Below are positions 16,952 through 34,869 of a stretch of 43,113 bases of DNA, piece by piece. Positions within the stretch are counted from its first letter, which is position 1; every line of letters begins with the position of its first letter. The stretch spans positions 1 to 43,113 of IMG/VR virus record IMGVR_UViG_3300027906_000041; one strand, written 5' to 3'. Below the pieces are notes generated by a model. It was given only the letters and a program-made list of their open reading frames with translations, searched no databases and was not told the origin of the DNA. The stretch comes from a virus. The position numbers and the translations under genes were made by a program.

Positions 16952-16979
16952 AGTATACTACAGAATCCTCATCTGTCAA
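16952..16979 (-). promoter_or_regulatory. Sigma70-type promoter for gp33 (TTGACA-N16-TATACT)
   Basis: On the minus strand, TTGACA (16974-16979), a 16-base spacer and TATACT (16952-16957). The -10 lies in the palindrome TATACTAGTATA. It overlaps the end of the iscU gene and would start transcription near 16945, feeding gp33, the basic proteins, bS21, gp59 and gp32. The same -35/-10 sequences and spacing occur at 34842-34869. Confidence 0.65.
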
Positions 16980-20201: not shown

Positions 20202-20384
20202 CTAAGTAAGTATTTTCAATTGTGCATTCTCATTTACTAATTGACCAACTCGAATCATCAAGTCTCTATTCTGTAATTGTAAATCATATACATTTTGTTT
20301 CAATTGAGTTATCTCAGATTCCAAATTAGGCTGTCTTCTTTTCGCCCGTTCCCTTTGCATTGAGATGCTTTTGCTCTCTTTCAT
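20202..20384 (-). CDS. Leucine-zipper-like 60-aa protein
   Basis: A basic N-terminus (SMQRERAKRRQPNLES) is followed by a heptad coiled coil (ITQLKQNVYDLQLQNRDLMI, then VGQLVNENAQLKIL), a bZIP-like layout. It overlaps the end of the upstream gene in another frame. The frame is open further upstream to 20477. I prefer ATG 20384 (or 20360) because a longer start would sit deep inside the neighbour. DNA binding is plausible but not shown. Confidence 0.5.
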   Translation of the reverse strand: MKESKSISMQRERAKRRQPNLESEITQLKQNVYDLQLQNRDLMIRVGQLVNENAQLKILT

Positions 20385-20670
20385 GTCGTTTTTCTCTATG
20401 TCTGAGTATTGCTTTGATAAGAACTTTTTCTTTCTCAGAGAATACATCAATAGTCTTAGGCCCCCATAAAGTACCAAACCTTGTAAGTTTATCAGAAGCA
20501 GACATCATGTTATTCCAGACATCATCCTCTGGACATCCCTTCCTGTCTTTTTCAAATAACTTACGACTAAACCTCAACGATTTGGTCTTGTGATCTTCTG
20601 CGAATGCAGATAATTCTCTTCCAATTTCAGCAAGTTTTAACTCACCTTCACTTATATCATAATAACCCAT
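20326..20670 (-). CDS. Hypothetical 114-aa protein
   Basis: Function unknown. A charged helical protein (LKLAEIGRELSAFAEDHKTK, SDKLTRFGTLWGPKTIDVF) with a basic Lys/His/Arg-rich C-terminus (RHREKRHEREQKHLN). It is the first gene after a sigma70-type promoter (20709-20738) and has AAGGAT before the ATG, so early or middle expression is expected. Confidence 0.65.
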   Translation of the reverse strand: MGYYDISEGELKLAEIGRELSAFAEDHKTKSLRFSRKLFEKDRKGCPEDDVWNNMMSASDKLTRFGTLWGPKTIDVFSEKEKVLIKAILRHREKRHEREQKHLNAKGTGEKKTA

Positions 20671-20708: not shown

Positions 20709-20738
20709 ATTATACACAAAGATGTACCCTAGTGTCAA
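20709..20738 (-). promoter_or_regulatory. GGGTACAT-class promoter (minus)
   Basis: TTGACA (20733-20738), an 18-base spacer and TATAAT (20709-20714) on the minus strand. The spacer holds GGGTACAT (20722-20729), three bases from the -35 and seven from the -10. The same arrangement occurs three times near 27.5-27.75 kb. The leader to the gene at 20670 is about 30 bases and includes a ribosome site. Confidence 0.75.
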
Positions 20739-24696: not shown

Positions 24697-25814
24697 TATA
24701 TAACTTTTAGTAGTACCATGTTTTGATTAATTCTTCCAGTTGGTATTGATGATTTTGTATTAATTTCATCAATTACTCGACTTAATACTATTTTACCACC
24801 ATTCTGGATTTTGTCAAGGAAATATTTTGTCTTATTTCCTATCTTCTTAGTGGTTCCTTTAAAATTCTTTAATGTGGTTCCTTTAACAGAAAGACCACCT
24901 CTATCCAATGCAATGAATCTAGTGATTTCTTTTGTCTTGGTATTGAATGTCCAGAGTTCCATAGCACCAACAATTTCTTCTGCATAGATTGATGTTAAGT
25001 GGTACTCTGTATCCACAATGTTGTACTTTAGATTCTTAATTTGTTCTTGTGCAGAATAAATCTTTTTCCTTCTGGGTTTTCTCTTCGATTTGCCCTCTGC
25101 ATATTTCTCGATAGAACCTATGATGTTTGATACAAACTCAGAATACTTTTTAAGTTTTGGTTTAGTAAGGAATGAATATCCTTCTTTGAGTTGTGGGTCT
25201 GATCCTTCTATTGCTTCTACTAATTCTTCATGAGTAGGTCTAAAAATATCTGCAATCTTTAATGCAACAGGGCCTGAGACATTTTCATTGTTCAGATATT
25301 CAAATACATTAAAATCCTTTTCGTTTTTATCTATAAAGTTATCTATAGCAAAATCAATCTCACTACTAAGTTCATCTGCTTTGTTTTGAATTCTCTGTTG
25401 AATAGTGACAACAGGTTTTGCATCTTTCTTCTTTTCTTTCTTATCTATTTTCTTTTGAATCTTAACAACTACTTCATCGATATATGATGTGATCTTTTGG
25501 TGTGCTGATTTTCCACCAAGAATTGGTTTGGGTTCAAAGTCTGGGTCATGTAGGACTGGTACTTTTCTTGAGTCCATTCTTGCAAGAGAACATGAAGACA
25601 TTGTGAGGTAATCACTATATGACCTTACCTTCTTTACATACTCAACTTTATATTCATTCTCTTCCATCCAATCTGCTAACCATCCAGCACCATCCGATGG
25701 ATTGTGCATGTAGTTATACCAATTGAAACAAGTATGGATATTTGCATCAGATGTAGAATCTGGTTCAGGCCCATAATGTAATTCATCAATAGTTTTTTGT
25801 TTTCTCTTTCCCAT
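24696..25814 (-). CDS. Conserved-looking 372-aa hypothetical protein
   Basis: Function not recognised. The N-terminal ~110 residues are globular (WYNYMHNPSDGAGWLADWME, YSDYLTMSSCSLARMDSRKV). A Lys/Glu-rich helix follows (~110-150), then a middle helical region and a C-terminal beta-rich part (YHLTSIYAEEIVGAMELWTF; GGLSVKGTTLKNFKGTTKK). The three-part layout and place beside RNase H suggest a DNA- or RNA-binding role. It overlaps the rnh start by one base. GGG and AAAG lie before its ATG. Confidence 0.6.
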   Translation of the reverse strand: MGKRKQKTIDELHYGPEPDSTSDANIHTCFNWYNYMHNPSDGAGWLADWMEENEYKVEYVKKVRSYSDYLTMSSCSLARMDSRKVPVLHDPDFEPKPILGGKSAHQKITSYIDEVVVKIQKKIDKKEKKKDAKPVVTIQQRIQNKADELSSEIDFAIDNFIDKNEKDFNVFEYLNNENVSGPVALKIADIFRPTHEELVEAIEGSDPQLKEGYSFLTKPKLKKYSEFVSNIIGSIEKYAEGKSKRKPRRKKIYSAQEQIKNLKYNIVDTEYHLTSIYAEEIVGAMELWTFNTKTKEITRFIALDRGGLSVKGTTLKNFKGTTKKIGNKTKYFLDKIQNGGKIVLSRVIDEINTKSSIPTGRINQNMVLLKVI

Positions 25815-26939: not shown

Positions 26940-27329
26940 TTATGCAGCGACTTGTTTCTCCAATTCTTTCCAAGTCATTCTTTTTGCTTTGAATAAATCA
27001 AAGGCTTCTTCATCGTCTACCCATTTCTTTTCATTCTCTGTTAGGGCAGAAGGTAAGTTGGTTGTTTCCCAACTTTTAACAAACTCTTGATAACCATCAC
27101 TAGATGCATTACCTAATTGGTTTAACAATGCAAGTATAGTTGCCTCAGAAATCTCTGGGCATTCGTAGTAAGAATGTTCACCCTTACCATATGCATCTTC
27201 TTCATAAATCTCATGAGTGACACCAAATGAAATGACATACTCTTTGCCACCTTTAAACTTCCAGTGATTACCACCATCTAAGTTATAGTTCTCTAAATAT
27301 TGTGTGTTTACTATAAGTGCTTTTTCCAT
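26940..27329 (-). CDS. Hypothetical 129-aa protein (NTQYLENY type)
   Basis: MEKALIVNTQYLENYNLDGG, HWKFKGGKEYVISFG, then acidic helical segments and KRMTWKELEKQVAA. The pattern NTQYLENY...W-KFKGG-Y recurs in proteins of many phages, but I know of no function. It is a soluble, acidic protein. It follows a zinc-ribbon gene and ends at the inverted-repeat element. Confidence 0.6.
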   Translation of the reverse strand: MEKALIVNTQYLENYNLDGGNHWKFKGGKEYVISFGVTHEIYEEDAYGKGEHSYYECPEISEATILALLNQLGNASSDGYQEFVKSWETTNLPSALTENEKKWVDDEEAFDLFKAKRMTWKELEKQVAA

Positions 27330-27355: not shown

Positions 27356-27526
27356 TTATTTCCAACATTTATATCCAGTGCAGTCTTTTAGTTCAGACCC
27401 ACAATGAATACAAAAACCTTGTTCTTTTGCTTCTTGTTCTTCGAGTTCCATTTGATGTGCAGATTGACCCTCTGCCTTTACTTCTTCCTCAGTGAACTCA
27501 TTTTGATTTACTAGATATTTTTCCAT
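27356..27526 (-). CDS. Small zinc-ribbon protein, 56 aa
   Basis: MEKYLVNQNEFTEEEVKAEG, a Glu-rich helix, then CIHCGSELKDCTGYKC with Cys39, 42, 49 and 54 as a likely zinc site. TATAAT lies exactly six bases before the ATG, so the transcript should begin at or one base from the start codon. No Shine-Dalgarno is present. The first genes of phage early operons are often such small regulators; the target is unknown. Confidence 0.6.
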   Translation of the reverse strand: MEKYLVNQNEFTEEEVKAEGQSAHQMELEEQEAKEQGFCIHCGSELKDCTGYKCWK

Positions 27527-27532
27527 GATTCC

Positions 27533-27562
27533 ATTATACTATTTTATGTACCCCTGTGTCAA
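27533..27562 (-). promoter_or_regulatory. GGGTACAT-class promoter (minus), leaderless layout
   Basis: TTGACA (27557-27562), an 18-base spacer holding GGGTACAT, and TATAAT (27533-27538). Six bases separate the -10 box from the ATG at 27526. The -35 overlaps the stop codon of the 37-aa gene upstream. Confidence 0.75.
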
Positions 27563-27672
27563 ATTATACTCAAGGTCATTATCAATGCTAAGAATCCCAA
27601 GAATGATAATTGAATAATTCTAAATCCTAAAGGAATCTCTATCGTTGGTTTTATGCCCATTCGTAATTTCAT
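27559..27672 (-). CDS. Membrane micro-protein, 37 aa
   Basis: MKLRMGIKPTIEIPLGFRII, then QLSFLGFLALIMTLSII, a single TM peptide with a basic N-terminus. TATAAT lies six bases before the ATG, the same leaderless layout as the zinc-ribbon gene. The stop TGA overlaps the next promoter's -35. It is the most upstream minus-strand gene of the divergent early pair. Function unknown. Confidence 0.5.
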   Translation of the reverse strand: MKLRMGIKPTIEIPLGFRIIQLSFLGFLALIMTLSII

Positions 27673-27678
27673 GTACCT

Positions 27679-27708
27679 ATTATACTAAAATATGTACCCA
27701 TGTGTCAA
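27679..27708 (-). promoter_or_regulatory. GGGTACAT-class promoter (minus), leaderless layout
   Basis: TTGACA (27703-27708), an 18-base spacer with GGGTACAT, TATAAT (27679-27684), then six bases to the ATG at 27672. Its -35 is ten bases from that of the plus-strand promoter at 27719, so the two are back to back and could share a regulator. Confidence 0.75.
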
Positions 27709-27718
27709 ACAAATAGAT

Positions 27719-27748
27719 TTGACTGTAGGGTACATAAAATTGTATAAT
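27719..27748 (+). promoter_or_regulatory. GGGTACAT-class promoter (plus)
   Basis: TTGACT (27719-27724), an 18-base spacer with GGGTACAT, and TATAAT (27743-27748). The leader to the ATG at 27771 is about 15-17 bases and carries AGGAG. It drives the three plus-strand genes 27771-28675. Confidence 0.75.
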
Positions 27749-27770: not shown

Positions 27771-28094
27771 ATGAAATTTAACGATTATATTGCACATGAG
27801 ATTAAACAAAATCTTACTGAATGCACAAAAGATGCAAAATTAGATCACCACTATTTTGCAACACCACTAAACCCAATTATTAAAAAAGTTGGTAAAGTGA
27901 ATTATGGTGAGTCCAACTATGCAGTTGGGCCATTGACAAAAACAATTTATGTCGAAGATACCATTGGTAATAGATATAAAGTTTCTGTTGAAGATTTGAA
28001 AAAAGTCAAAGGACATGGGTGGATCACTCATGAAGAAGCAAACAAGTTAAATCTTGTTTACAATCGAGAAGAAGGAGTACATGAAGTTGCTTAA
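27771..28094 (+). CDS. Hypothetical early 107-aa protein
   Basis: MKFNDYIAHEIKQNLTECTK, then a likely beta-rich core (VGPLTKTIYVEDTIGNRYKV) and HGWITHEEANKLNLVY. Soluble, function unknown. A strong ribosome site (AGGAG) and promoter lie just upstream. The next gene starts inside its last codons (28081), implying coupling. Confidence 0.65.
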   Translation: MKFNDYIAHEIKQNLTECTKDAKLDHHYFATPLNPIIKKVGKVNYGESNYAVGPLTKTIYVEDTIGNRYKVSVEDLKKVKGHGWITHEEANKLNLVYNREEGVHEVA

Positions 28095-28275
28095 CTCAAT
28101 AACAGTTGATGGAATCGAATTTGAAGTCGAAGAGTATTTTGATATACTTGAGACTTTGAGGGAATCTGGAAAGATTAATATGTTTGGAGCTCCAAGATGG
28201 TTAGAGAACCAATTTGGATTAACCAAGAATCAAGCACAATTTGTGTTTATGAAATGGACAGAAACATATAAGTAA
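28081..28275 (+). CDS. Hypothetical 64-aa protein
   Basis: MKLLNSITVDGIEFEVEEYF, then INMFGAPRWLENQFGLTKNQ and a WTETYK end. The second half is a small helical unit with an MFGAPR..L...F...A..F pattern that I have seen in marine phage proteins; no function is known. The start at 28081 is chosen because AAGGAG lies just before it; an upstream ATG at 28054 is less well supported. Confidence 0.6.
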   Translation: MKLLNSITVDGIEFEVEEYFDILETLRESGKINMFGAPRWLENQFGLTKNQAQFVFMKWTETYK

Positions 28276-28303: not shown

Positions 28304-28675
28304 ATGATTGGTGTGAATATTGAAGGCCCTCGTGGTGGAAAGATCAGAGAAGAAGATAAAATCTTTCGTTTTATCAATGAATCTATAGATATATTAGGTC
28401 TGGAAAAATTAGAATTTGGACTTACTGTTATCGTAACTAATCAATTTGAAGAATCTCACTCAGATGCAGTGGGATTTTGCTATGGTGATACTGACGAGAT
28501 TGTCGTTGAACTTGCACGAAAAGACTGGAATGGTGACAAAAATAACATATTCCAAATACTCTCTCACGAAATGATCCATGTTCGTCAATGTGCAAAAGGT
28601 GAAAGGATGCTAGAGAACCCAGCACGAAAACATGAAGGATTCTTATTCGATCTCGTCATGGAAAGACTTGTGTAG
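28304..28675 (+). CDS. Putative zinc metallopeptidase (HExxH), SprT-like
   Basis: 123 residues. SHEMIHVRQ (87-95) is an HExxH zinc site with His88, Glu89 and His92, and a later KHEGFLFDLVMERL may carry further ligands. Small single-domain SprT/WLM-like peptidases look like this. It may process a phage or host protein. AAGGAG precedes the ATG. Its last ~33 bases overlap the convergent nuclease gene. Confidence 0.65.
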   Translation: MIGVNIEGPRGGKIREEDKIFRFINESIDILGLEKLEFGLTVIVTNQFEESHSDAVGFCYGDTDEIVVELARKDWNGDKNNIFQILSHEMIHVRQCAKGERMLENPARKHEGFLFDLVMERLV

Positions 28676-34841: not shown

Positions 34842-34869
34842 AGTATACTACGAATCGTGGATTTGTCAA
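34842..34869 (-). promoter_or_regulatory. Sigma70-type promoter, leaderless layout (TTGACA-N16-TATACT)
   Basis: On the minus strand, TTGACA (34864-34869), 16 bases, then TATACT (34842-34847), with six bases to the primase ATG at 34835. Transcription would start on or just before the start codon. The -35, -10 and spacing match the gp33 promoter at 16952, including the GATTC and TAGTATACTAG context. Confidence 0.7.

Follow-up and report, generated by a model that had tools for sequence, protein, structure and literature searches.

A fixed-position spacer octamer in a class of probably early promoters of a T4-like marine phage lineage

A promoter octamer at one offset

Four promoters in a 43,113-nucleotide stretch of viral DNA (hereafter the window; IMG/VR record IMGVR_UViG_3300027906_000041) carry the octamer GGGTACAT between their -35 and -10 boxes, always at the same offset, which raises the question of whether the octamer is a promoter element and, if so, what reads it. 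A first-pass annotation had placed such sites at 20709, 27533, 27679 and 27719, and a pattern match on the window recovered each of them there with 0 mismatches to TTGAC-N4-GGGTACAT-N7-TATAAT (Table 1); as it had also described, ten bases (27709-27718) lie between the two divergent -35 boxes. All four are of sigma70 type, a type defined by TTGACA and TATAAT boxes 16-18 bp apart: hexamer matches amount to 12/12 at the three minus-strand sites and 11/12 at the plus-strand site, the spacer is 18 bp, and no other 18-bp-spacer promoter with at least 11/12 matches exists within the window.

The annotation's view that such an arrangement is beyond chance was borne out, as 0.04 matches were expected at up to 3 mismatches and none of 100 dinucleotide shuffles of the window held four matches (up to 3 mismatches allowed). 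The window contains 4 copies of GGGTACAT (1.1 expected), all at these sites, so that every copy lies in a promoter. The annotation had further made its proposal depend on the octamer being commoner in promoters than expected, and it is: in G001, a 129.6-kb near-strain record in which several of the window promoters are present with identical sequence, all 7 copies of GGGTACAT lie in this promoter. Avoidance of the octamer outside promoters was considered for G001 (0 seen, about 4 expected) and, because it was not repeated in the genomes G002 and G003, was left out of the argument.

Table 1. Coordinates of promoters, genes and leader ORFs (window positions unless a locus is given)
Feature	Position	Strand	Details
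Class A promoter	27679..27708	-	TTGACA-CAT-GGGTACAT-ATTTTAG-TATAAT; predicted +1 = 27672 = A of ATG
Class A promoter	27533..27562	-	TTGACA-CAG-GGGTACAT-AAAATAG-TATAAT; predicted +1 = 27526 = A of ATG
Class A promoter, divergent	27719..27748	+	TTGACT-GTA-GGGTACAT-AAAATTG-TATAAT; leader with GGAG 5' of ATG 27771
Class A promoter	20709..20738	-	TTGACA-CTA-GGGTACAT-CTTTGTG-TATAAT; orthologue at G001 4819
37-aa ORF, leaderless	27559..27672	-	starts at predicted +1; G003 homologue likewise leaderless, behind class A promoter
56-aa Cys-rich (zinc-ribbon-like) ORF, leaderless	27356..27526	-	starts at predicted +1
129-aa conserved ORF	26940..27329	-	next in minus-strand operon
107-aa ORF	27771..28094	+	behind plus-strand class A promoter
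64-aa NMFGAP-motif ORF	28081..28275	+	gene 2 of plus-strand operon
SprT-like metallopeptidase-type ORF	28304..28675	+	gene 3 of plus-strand operon; Pfam match weak and under cut-off
114-aa helical protein, MGYYDI family	20326..20670	-	behind class A promoters in relatives examined
Class B promoter, 16-bp spacer	34842..34869	-	TTGACA-AATCCACGATTCGTAG-TATACT; gp61-like primase ATG at predicted +1 (34835)
Class B promoter	16952..16979	-	TTGACA-GATGAGGATTCTGTAG-TATACT
Class B-like promoter	24790..24817	-	TTGACA-AAATCCAGAATGGTGG-TAAAAT; upstream of RNase H/exonuclease gene
tRNA-Asp/cobT-like arrangement	L010:3734-3905, L173:5404-5478, L177:12235-12385		cobT-like gene leaderless
Short leader ORFs overlapping or touching the next start	L161:6996, L164:9456, L166:792, L013:1368, L018:13345, L022:4550, L037:406, L092:11706, L173:3053

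Promoter classes of one phage lineage

Promoters of this type, here called class A, were found in about 100 contigs of marine viruses belonging to a single T4-like lineage (Kyanoviridae). The exact GGGTACAT pattern occurs in 34 stretches in IMG/VR, and its identically placed AGGTACAT counterpart in 71; with a 17-bp spacer the GGGTACAT pattern gave 5 matches, and with the same bases but the octamer shifted by one it gave 0 matches in 2.9 million contigs. At least two G001-like proteins are encoded at 159 of the 182 loci with sites, which indicates essentially one phage lineage; several of the remaining loci are parts missing from G001. Sixteen records searched at up to 3 mismatches held up to 11 sites apiece and no match to the reversed pattern. 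A position weight matrix recovered 7 sites in G001, 11 in G002, 7 in G003 and 4 in the window, and 0 in shuffled sequence and in the SAR11-infecting phages HTVC008M and Mosig; near-complete relatives have 7-11 sites apiece. The shuffles, the one-base shift and these scans rule out a chance origin of the GGGTACAT pattern. With mismatches allowed, the pattern was not found in T4, P-SSM2, marine virus AG-345-P14, Melnitz or HTVC008M, and S-PM2, Syn9 and Mosig have one stray match apiece, with 2-3 mismatches. A search of GTDB (257 Gb, 85,000 bacterial and archaeal genomes) returned 5 matches, of which Nitrososphaerales archaeal assemblies account for four and an Oscillospiraceae MAG for the fifth; as none is in a plausible marine host, they were taken as chance background, and the pattern is essentially absent from bacterial and archaeal genomes.

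The window is a fragment of a T4-like phage. Its NrdB is closest to those of the pelagiphages Mosig and HTVC008M and its NrdA to those of cyanophages. Besides a T4-like core, the small proteins of G001 include S21, peptide deformylase and CsgF, which are listed for pelagimyophages (PMC7029224), placing the lineage among the Kyanoviridae and the relatives of pelagimyophages. The DNA polymerase gp43 of the lineage has at most 47% identity to that of any isolate, and no phage related to the window came up in a nucleotide search. NifU-like and acyl-carrier-like proteins are encoded in addition to S21 (in G001), and at 96238-98477 of the same genome a C5-cytosine methyltransferase-like gene adjoins a 2OG-dependent oxygenase-like gene, both named by eye, a possible case of cytosine hypermodification. 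HTVC008M has a promoter family of its own, AGC-TTGACT, a 17-bp spacer ending in TGTGA and TATAAT (e.g., at 80353, 97020, 118213 and 144003).

Fifty-six nonredundant class A sites, chosen by pattern, gave the consensus TTGAC-W-C-A-T-R-GGTACAT-WWTTTN-R-TATAAT-R-NNNN-Y-A-T-R, in which the octamer spans -27 to -20 when TATAAT is set at -12 to -7. These sites have no TGn extended -10 element (G at -14 in 3/56), and upstream of the -35 box they are not conserved, with a weak enrichment of A of at most 0.21 bits per position. The usual start-site preference is CAT, and the YAT at -1 to +2 fits it, so that the seventh base after the -10 box was taken as the predicted +1. The idea that an ACAT at +1 is a second half-site, repeating the octamer directly at 21 bp, was rejected, since the CAT start preference fits better and the conserved part is YAT.

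Class A promoters precede small unknown ORFs, tRNA-Asp and cobT-like, cobS-like, KOW-like and MGYYDI genes; the cobT-like peptidase was assigned via phrog_459, the KOW-like ORF was named by eye, and the cobS gene is a probable one, named from its likeness in place and size to the HTVC008M gene. In three diverged long genomes a class A promoter is followed by tRNA-Asp, a further class A promoter and then the cobT-like gene, and the orthologous operons of the cobT-like, cobS-like and MGYYDI genes and the KOW-like ORF retain a class A promoter though their flanks diverge. This gene content suggests early timing, and class A promoters are probably early promoters. Early promoters of T4 are sigma70-dependent and consist of UP, -35, TGn and -10 elements (PMC2988021, PMC1524935). 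Class A shares with them near-consensus -35 and -10 boxes and a position 5' of small unknown ORFs and tRNA genes, and would, like them, presumably be served by unmodified host RNA polymerase at once after infection; it differs in its 18-bp spacer and fixed octamer and in having no TGn, and a UP element, if present, would be a weak one.

The same genomes contain a second class, class B, with the pattern TTGACA-RAT-N5-TTYTGTRG-TATAAT, a 16-bp spacer and no octamer, which precedes the genes for DNA polymerase gp43, UvsX, UvsY, late sigma gp55, primase gp61 and RNase H; in T4 this gene set consists of replication-period genes. Class B was not found in six reference phages (T4, three cyanophages, AG-345-P14 and HTVC008M), and a strict class B pattern that included the ATG, and was too strict, matched one contig only. 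Among gene-proximal promoters with at least 11/12 matches in G001-G003, 28 have 16-bp, 19 have 18-bp and 4 have 17-bp spacers; the 17-bp spacing, the usual optimum, is thus nearly missing, and the octamer is present in 17 of the 19 with 18 bp. Sites with TATAAATA precede scaffold, baseplate and tail-cap genes, as T4 late promoters likewise lie 5' of structural genes, the bare word being modestly enriched only. For pelagimyophages, promoter prediction beyond generic sigma70 (middle, late) was unsuccessful (PMC7029224); the present classes supply an ocean phage type without a close isolate with candidate signatures of its early, middle and late promoters. Among the papers listed by a literature search for the octamer word none was related, and neither this octamer nor the 16/18 split nor the lineage drift (below) was found described, although spacer elements and temporal promoter classes are already known.

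What may read the octamer

The reading that we prefer, with a probability of roughly 0.45, is that class A promoters, likely early, combine sigma70-type hexamers with an element RGGTACAT that is read by a separate, probably phage-encoded and co-evolving factor. Host sigma70-type RNA polymerase would bind at the -35 and -10 boxes, both of them consensus and separated by 18 bp, and its use of these hexamers is, from their match to consensus, near certain. RGGTACAT (-27 to -20) would be a second, independent signal for a sequence-specific factor, most likely phage-encoded, and the predicted factor would set class A apart from the 16-bp-spacer class B of the replication genes. The first-pass annotation had suggested, from a spacer one base longer than optimal, that a phage or host regulator may act between the boxes or a modified polymerase recognise the octamer. 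What stands of this is, with strong support, a spacer element of fixed position as the mark of one class of promoters across the lineage, together with indirect support for a trans-acting reader, namely the genome-specific drift of the octamer and the lack of the motif in host genomes and SAR11-infecting isolates; an activator is not needed for the 18-bp spacer, because both hexamers are consensus.

The drift concerns two positions of the octamer. G002 has A at position 1 in 8/11 sites, where every other site has G; G003 has G at position 5 in 5/7 sites, where nearly every other site has A; all 10 octamers of G001 and the window are identical to GGGTACAT, so that the variants by genome are GGGTACAT, AGGTACAT and GGGTGC... 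A permutation test of per-genome drift gave p = 0.0006 for position 1 and 0.001 for position 5, a test that treats sites as independent, with some of them orthologous and with hosts that may differ among the three lineages. Host sigma or core polymerase is not expected to change so fast, and such concerted drift therefore favours a co-evolving, probably phage-encoded DNA-binding protein over a fixed host polymerase. We infer the existence of this reader, its phage origin and the direction of its effect. Its likelier role would be class-specific control, such as early shut-off through occupancy of the spacer: the hexamers already make a strong promoter, which renders shut-off likelier than activation, and spacer occupancy would block RNA polymerase, making shut-off the simplest use. 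We lean slightly towards shut-off. In T4, the mechanism of early shut-off has been described as unknown (PMC2988021), and class A offers a handle on how early promoters are distinguished from later ones and on their possible shut-off.

The drift also bears on the main alternative, possible but doubtful, in which the octamer is an extended core promoter read by host RNA polymerase itself, through the beta' zipper and a Z-element or through the spacer trajectory presented to sigma, the phage having merely optimised its early promoters for the host polymerase as T4 did with UP, -35, TGn and -10. The Z-element (Yuzenkova 2011, as cited in PMC4496709 and PMC10911233) is an in-spacer element said to contact the beta' zipper of the core enzyme, placed at -24 to -18 (PMC4496709) or at -22 to -18 with a loose AACCT (PMC10911233), and because the octamer overlaps this region, the polymerase itself could read it. 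In T4 early promoters, too, consensus extends past the known elements (PMC2988021), and the class A hexamers are near perfect. However, measured against the Z-element, RGGTACAT is longer, reaches 3 bp further upstream, differs from AACCT (class A has CATWW at -22 to -18) and drifts among phage lineages. The motif is also absent from the SAR11-infecting HTVC008M and Mosig and, beyond background, from bacterial genomes, and class B, in the same genomes and with the same hexamers, has a different spacer word.

The two spacer lengths could instead matter mechanically, 18- and 16-bp spacers responding differently to supercoiling during infection and the spacer words tuning twist or bend, so that timing would need no reader. 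The near lack of 17-bp spacers among near-consensus gene-proximal promoters agrees with this, as do reports that spacer length and sequence influence supercoiling sensitivity and timing (PMC9303308, PMC8695583). Against it, an exact octamer at one offset is not obviously demanded, and 0 were found one base away; moreover, a section of PMC8695583 is headed 'Spacer length has a minor effect on DNA supercoiling sensitivity' and the model of PMC9303308 does not hold for 16-nt spacers. Such mechanics may contribute to the 16/18 split, and as a full account we consider them unlikely.

Phages in general borrow host regulators, and the octamer might thus be read by a host transcription factor, the phage early genes joining a host regulon and each phage lineage following its own host. 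The full pattern is, however, essentially absent from 85,000 genomes, and such a factor would have to tolerate lineage-specific RGGTRC variants, which leaves it a quite unlikely reader. Still more improbable is the recent duplication of one promoter cassette with the octamer as a functionless hitch-hiking remnant: some spacer words are common to sites, such as TTGACTGTAGGGTACAT at several sites in G001, yet the flanks show no relationship, the octamer is constant where N3 and N7 vary, and it is kept in operons encoding proteins that by now share roughly 50-60% identity.

Candidates for the phage-encoded reader were sought in several ways. Among 83 small conserved proteins of G001, Pfam scans yielded no clear DNA-binding regulator; MotA and AsiA (PF09114, PF09010) were not found in G000-G003, records that may be incomplete; HTH_3 was not detected among the lineage genomes scanned; and none of MotA, AsiA, HTH_3 and DUF3693 was convincing as a reader. 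A comparative filter for genes in G001, G002 and G003 and not in HTVC008M or Mosig, which misses readers with isolate homologues, left 31 genes, none obviously DNA-binding. The best candidate driven by class A is the MGYYDI protein, whose predicted fold is helical (pLDDT 75) and gave no PDB match with E < 1.

Known systems fit class A in part. At T4 middle promoters, a MotA box around -30 replaces the -35 box, and MotA and AsiA act there (PMC2988021). A phage-specific element plus a host -10 box separates a temporal class in both cases, but class A keeps its -35 box, has its element at -27 to -20 and comes without detected MotA or AsiA, which leaves a MotA/AsiA middle mode unsupported; several T4-like phages are likewise without MotA (PMC1524935). 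T4 late promoters (TATAAATA, no -35) differ from class A, which has both a -35 box and TATAAT. MerR-family operators place the regulator site between the -35 and -10 boxes, with a dyad and a longer spacer of 19-20 bp. The class A spacer is 18 bp, not 19-20, and its octamer lacks dyad symmetry, being not palindromic, unlike many repressor operators.

Leaderless starts at the predicted +1

Of 82 nonredundant class A sites, 29 have an ATG at the predicted +1, each other offset from 1 to 30 having at most 6, and so do two of the four window promoters (27679 and 27533). At most class B sites, including those of gp43, gp55, UvsY and primase, the ATG lies within 1-2 bases of +1. As both classes often place ATG at the predicted +1, leaderless mRNAs are expected, among them those of the gp43, primase, gp55, UvsY and cobT-like genes. 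Leaderless transcripts are frequent in phages (PMC5312081), so that the phenomenon itself is not new; a systematic use as seen here was not found described in the literature searched.

Nine of 10 short ORFs that begin at a class A +1 stop on the next start codon, 7 in ATGA overlaps and 2 with the stop touching the start; they include the cobS-like leader, which is 10 to 16 codons long in five relatives and always in frame. A shuffling null for these stop/start overlaps, in a post hoc test, gave 7e-11, or 2e-6 when the cobS-like leaders are counted once. This suggests, at the level of sequence, that the +1 AUGs of the short leader ORFs may be translated, and the overlap of leader stop and next start suggests translational coupling.

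These starts enter a broader reading, which we hold tentatively and regard as a minority possibility: a spacer code would replace MotA/AsiA, with one sigma70 polymerase and two promoter classes of identical hexamers, 18 or 16 bp and the spacer word separating the classes, with a phage protein reading RGGTACAT, leaderless early and middle mRNAs as the standard, and leaderless leader ORFs whose stop overlaps the next start. Predicted leaderless mRNAs in phages that encode S21 raise the question of translation takeover, and S21 and leaderless mRNAs could be functionally linked. In the window, the leaderless 37-aa ORF has its TGA stop (27559-27562) within the -35 box of the tandem promoter that follows downstream.
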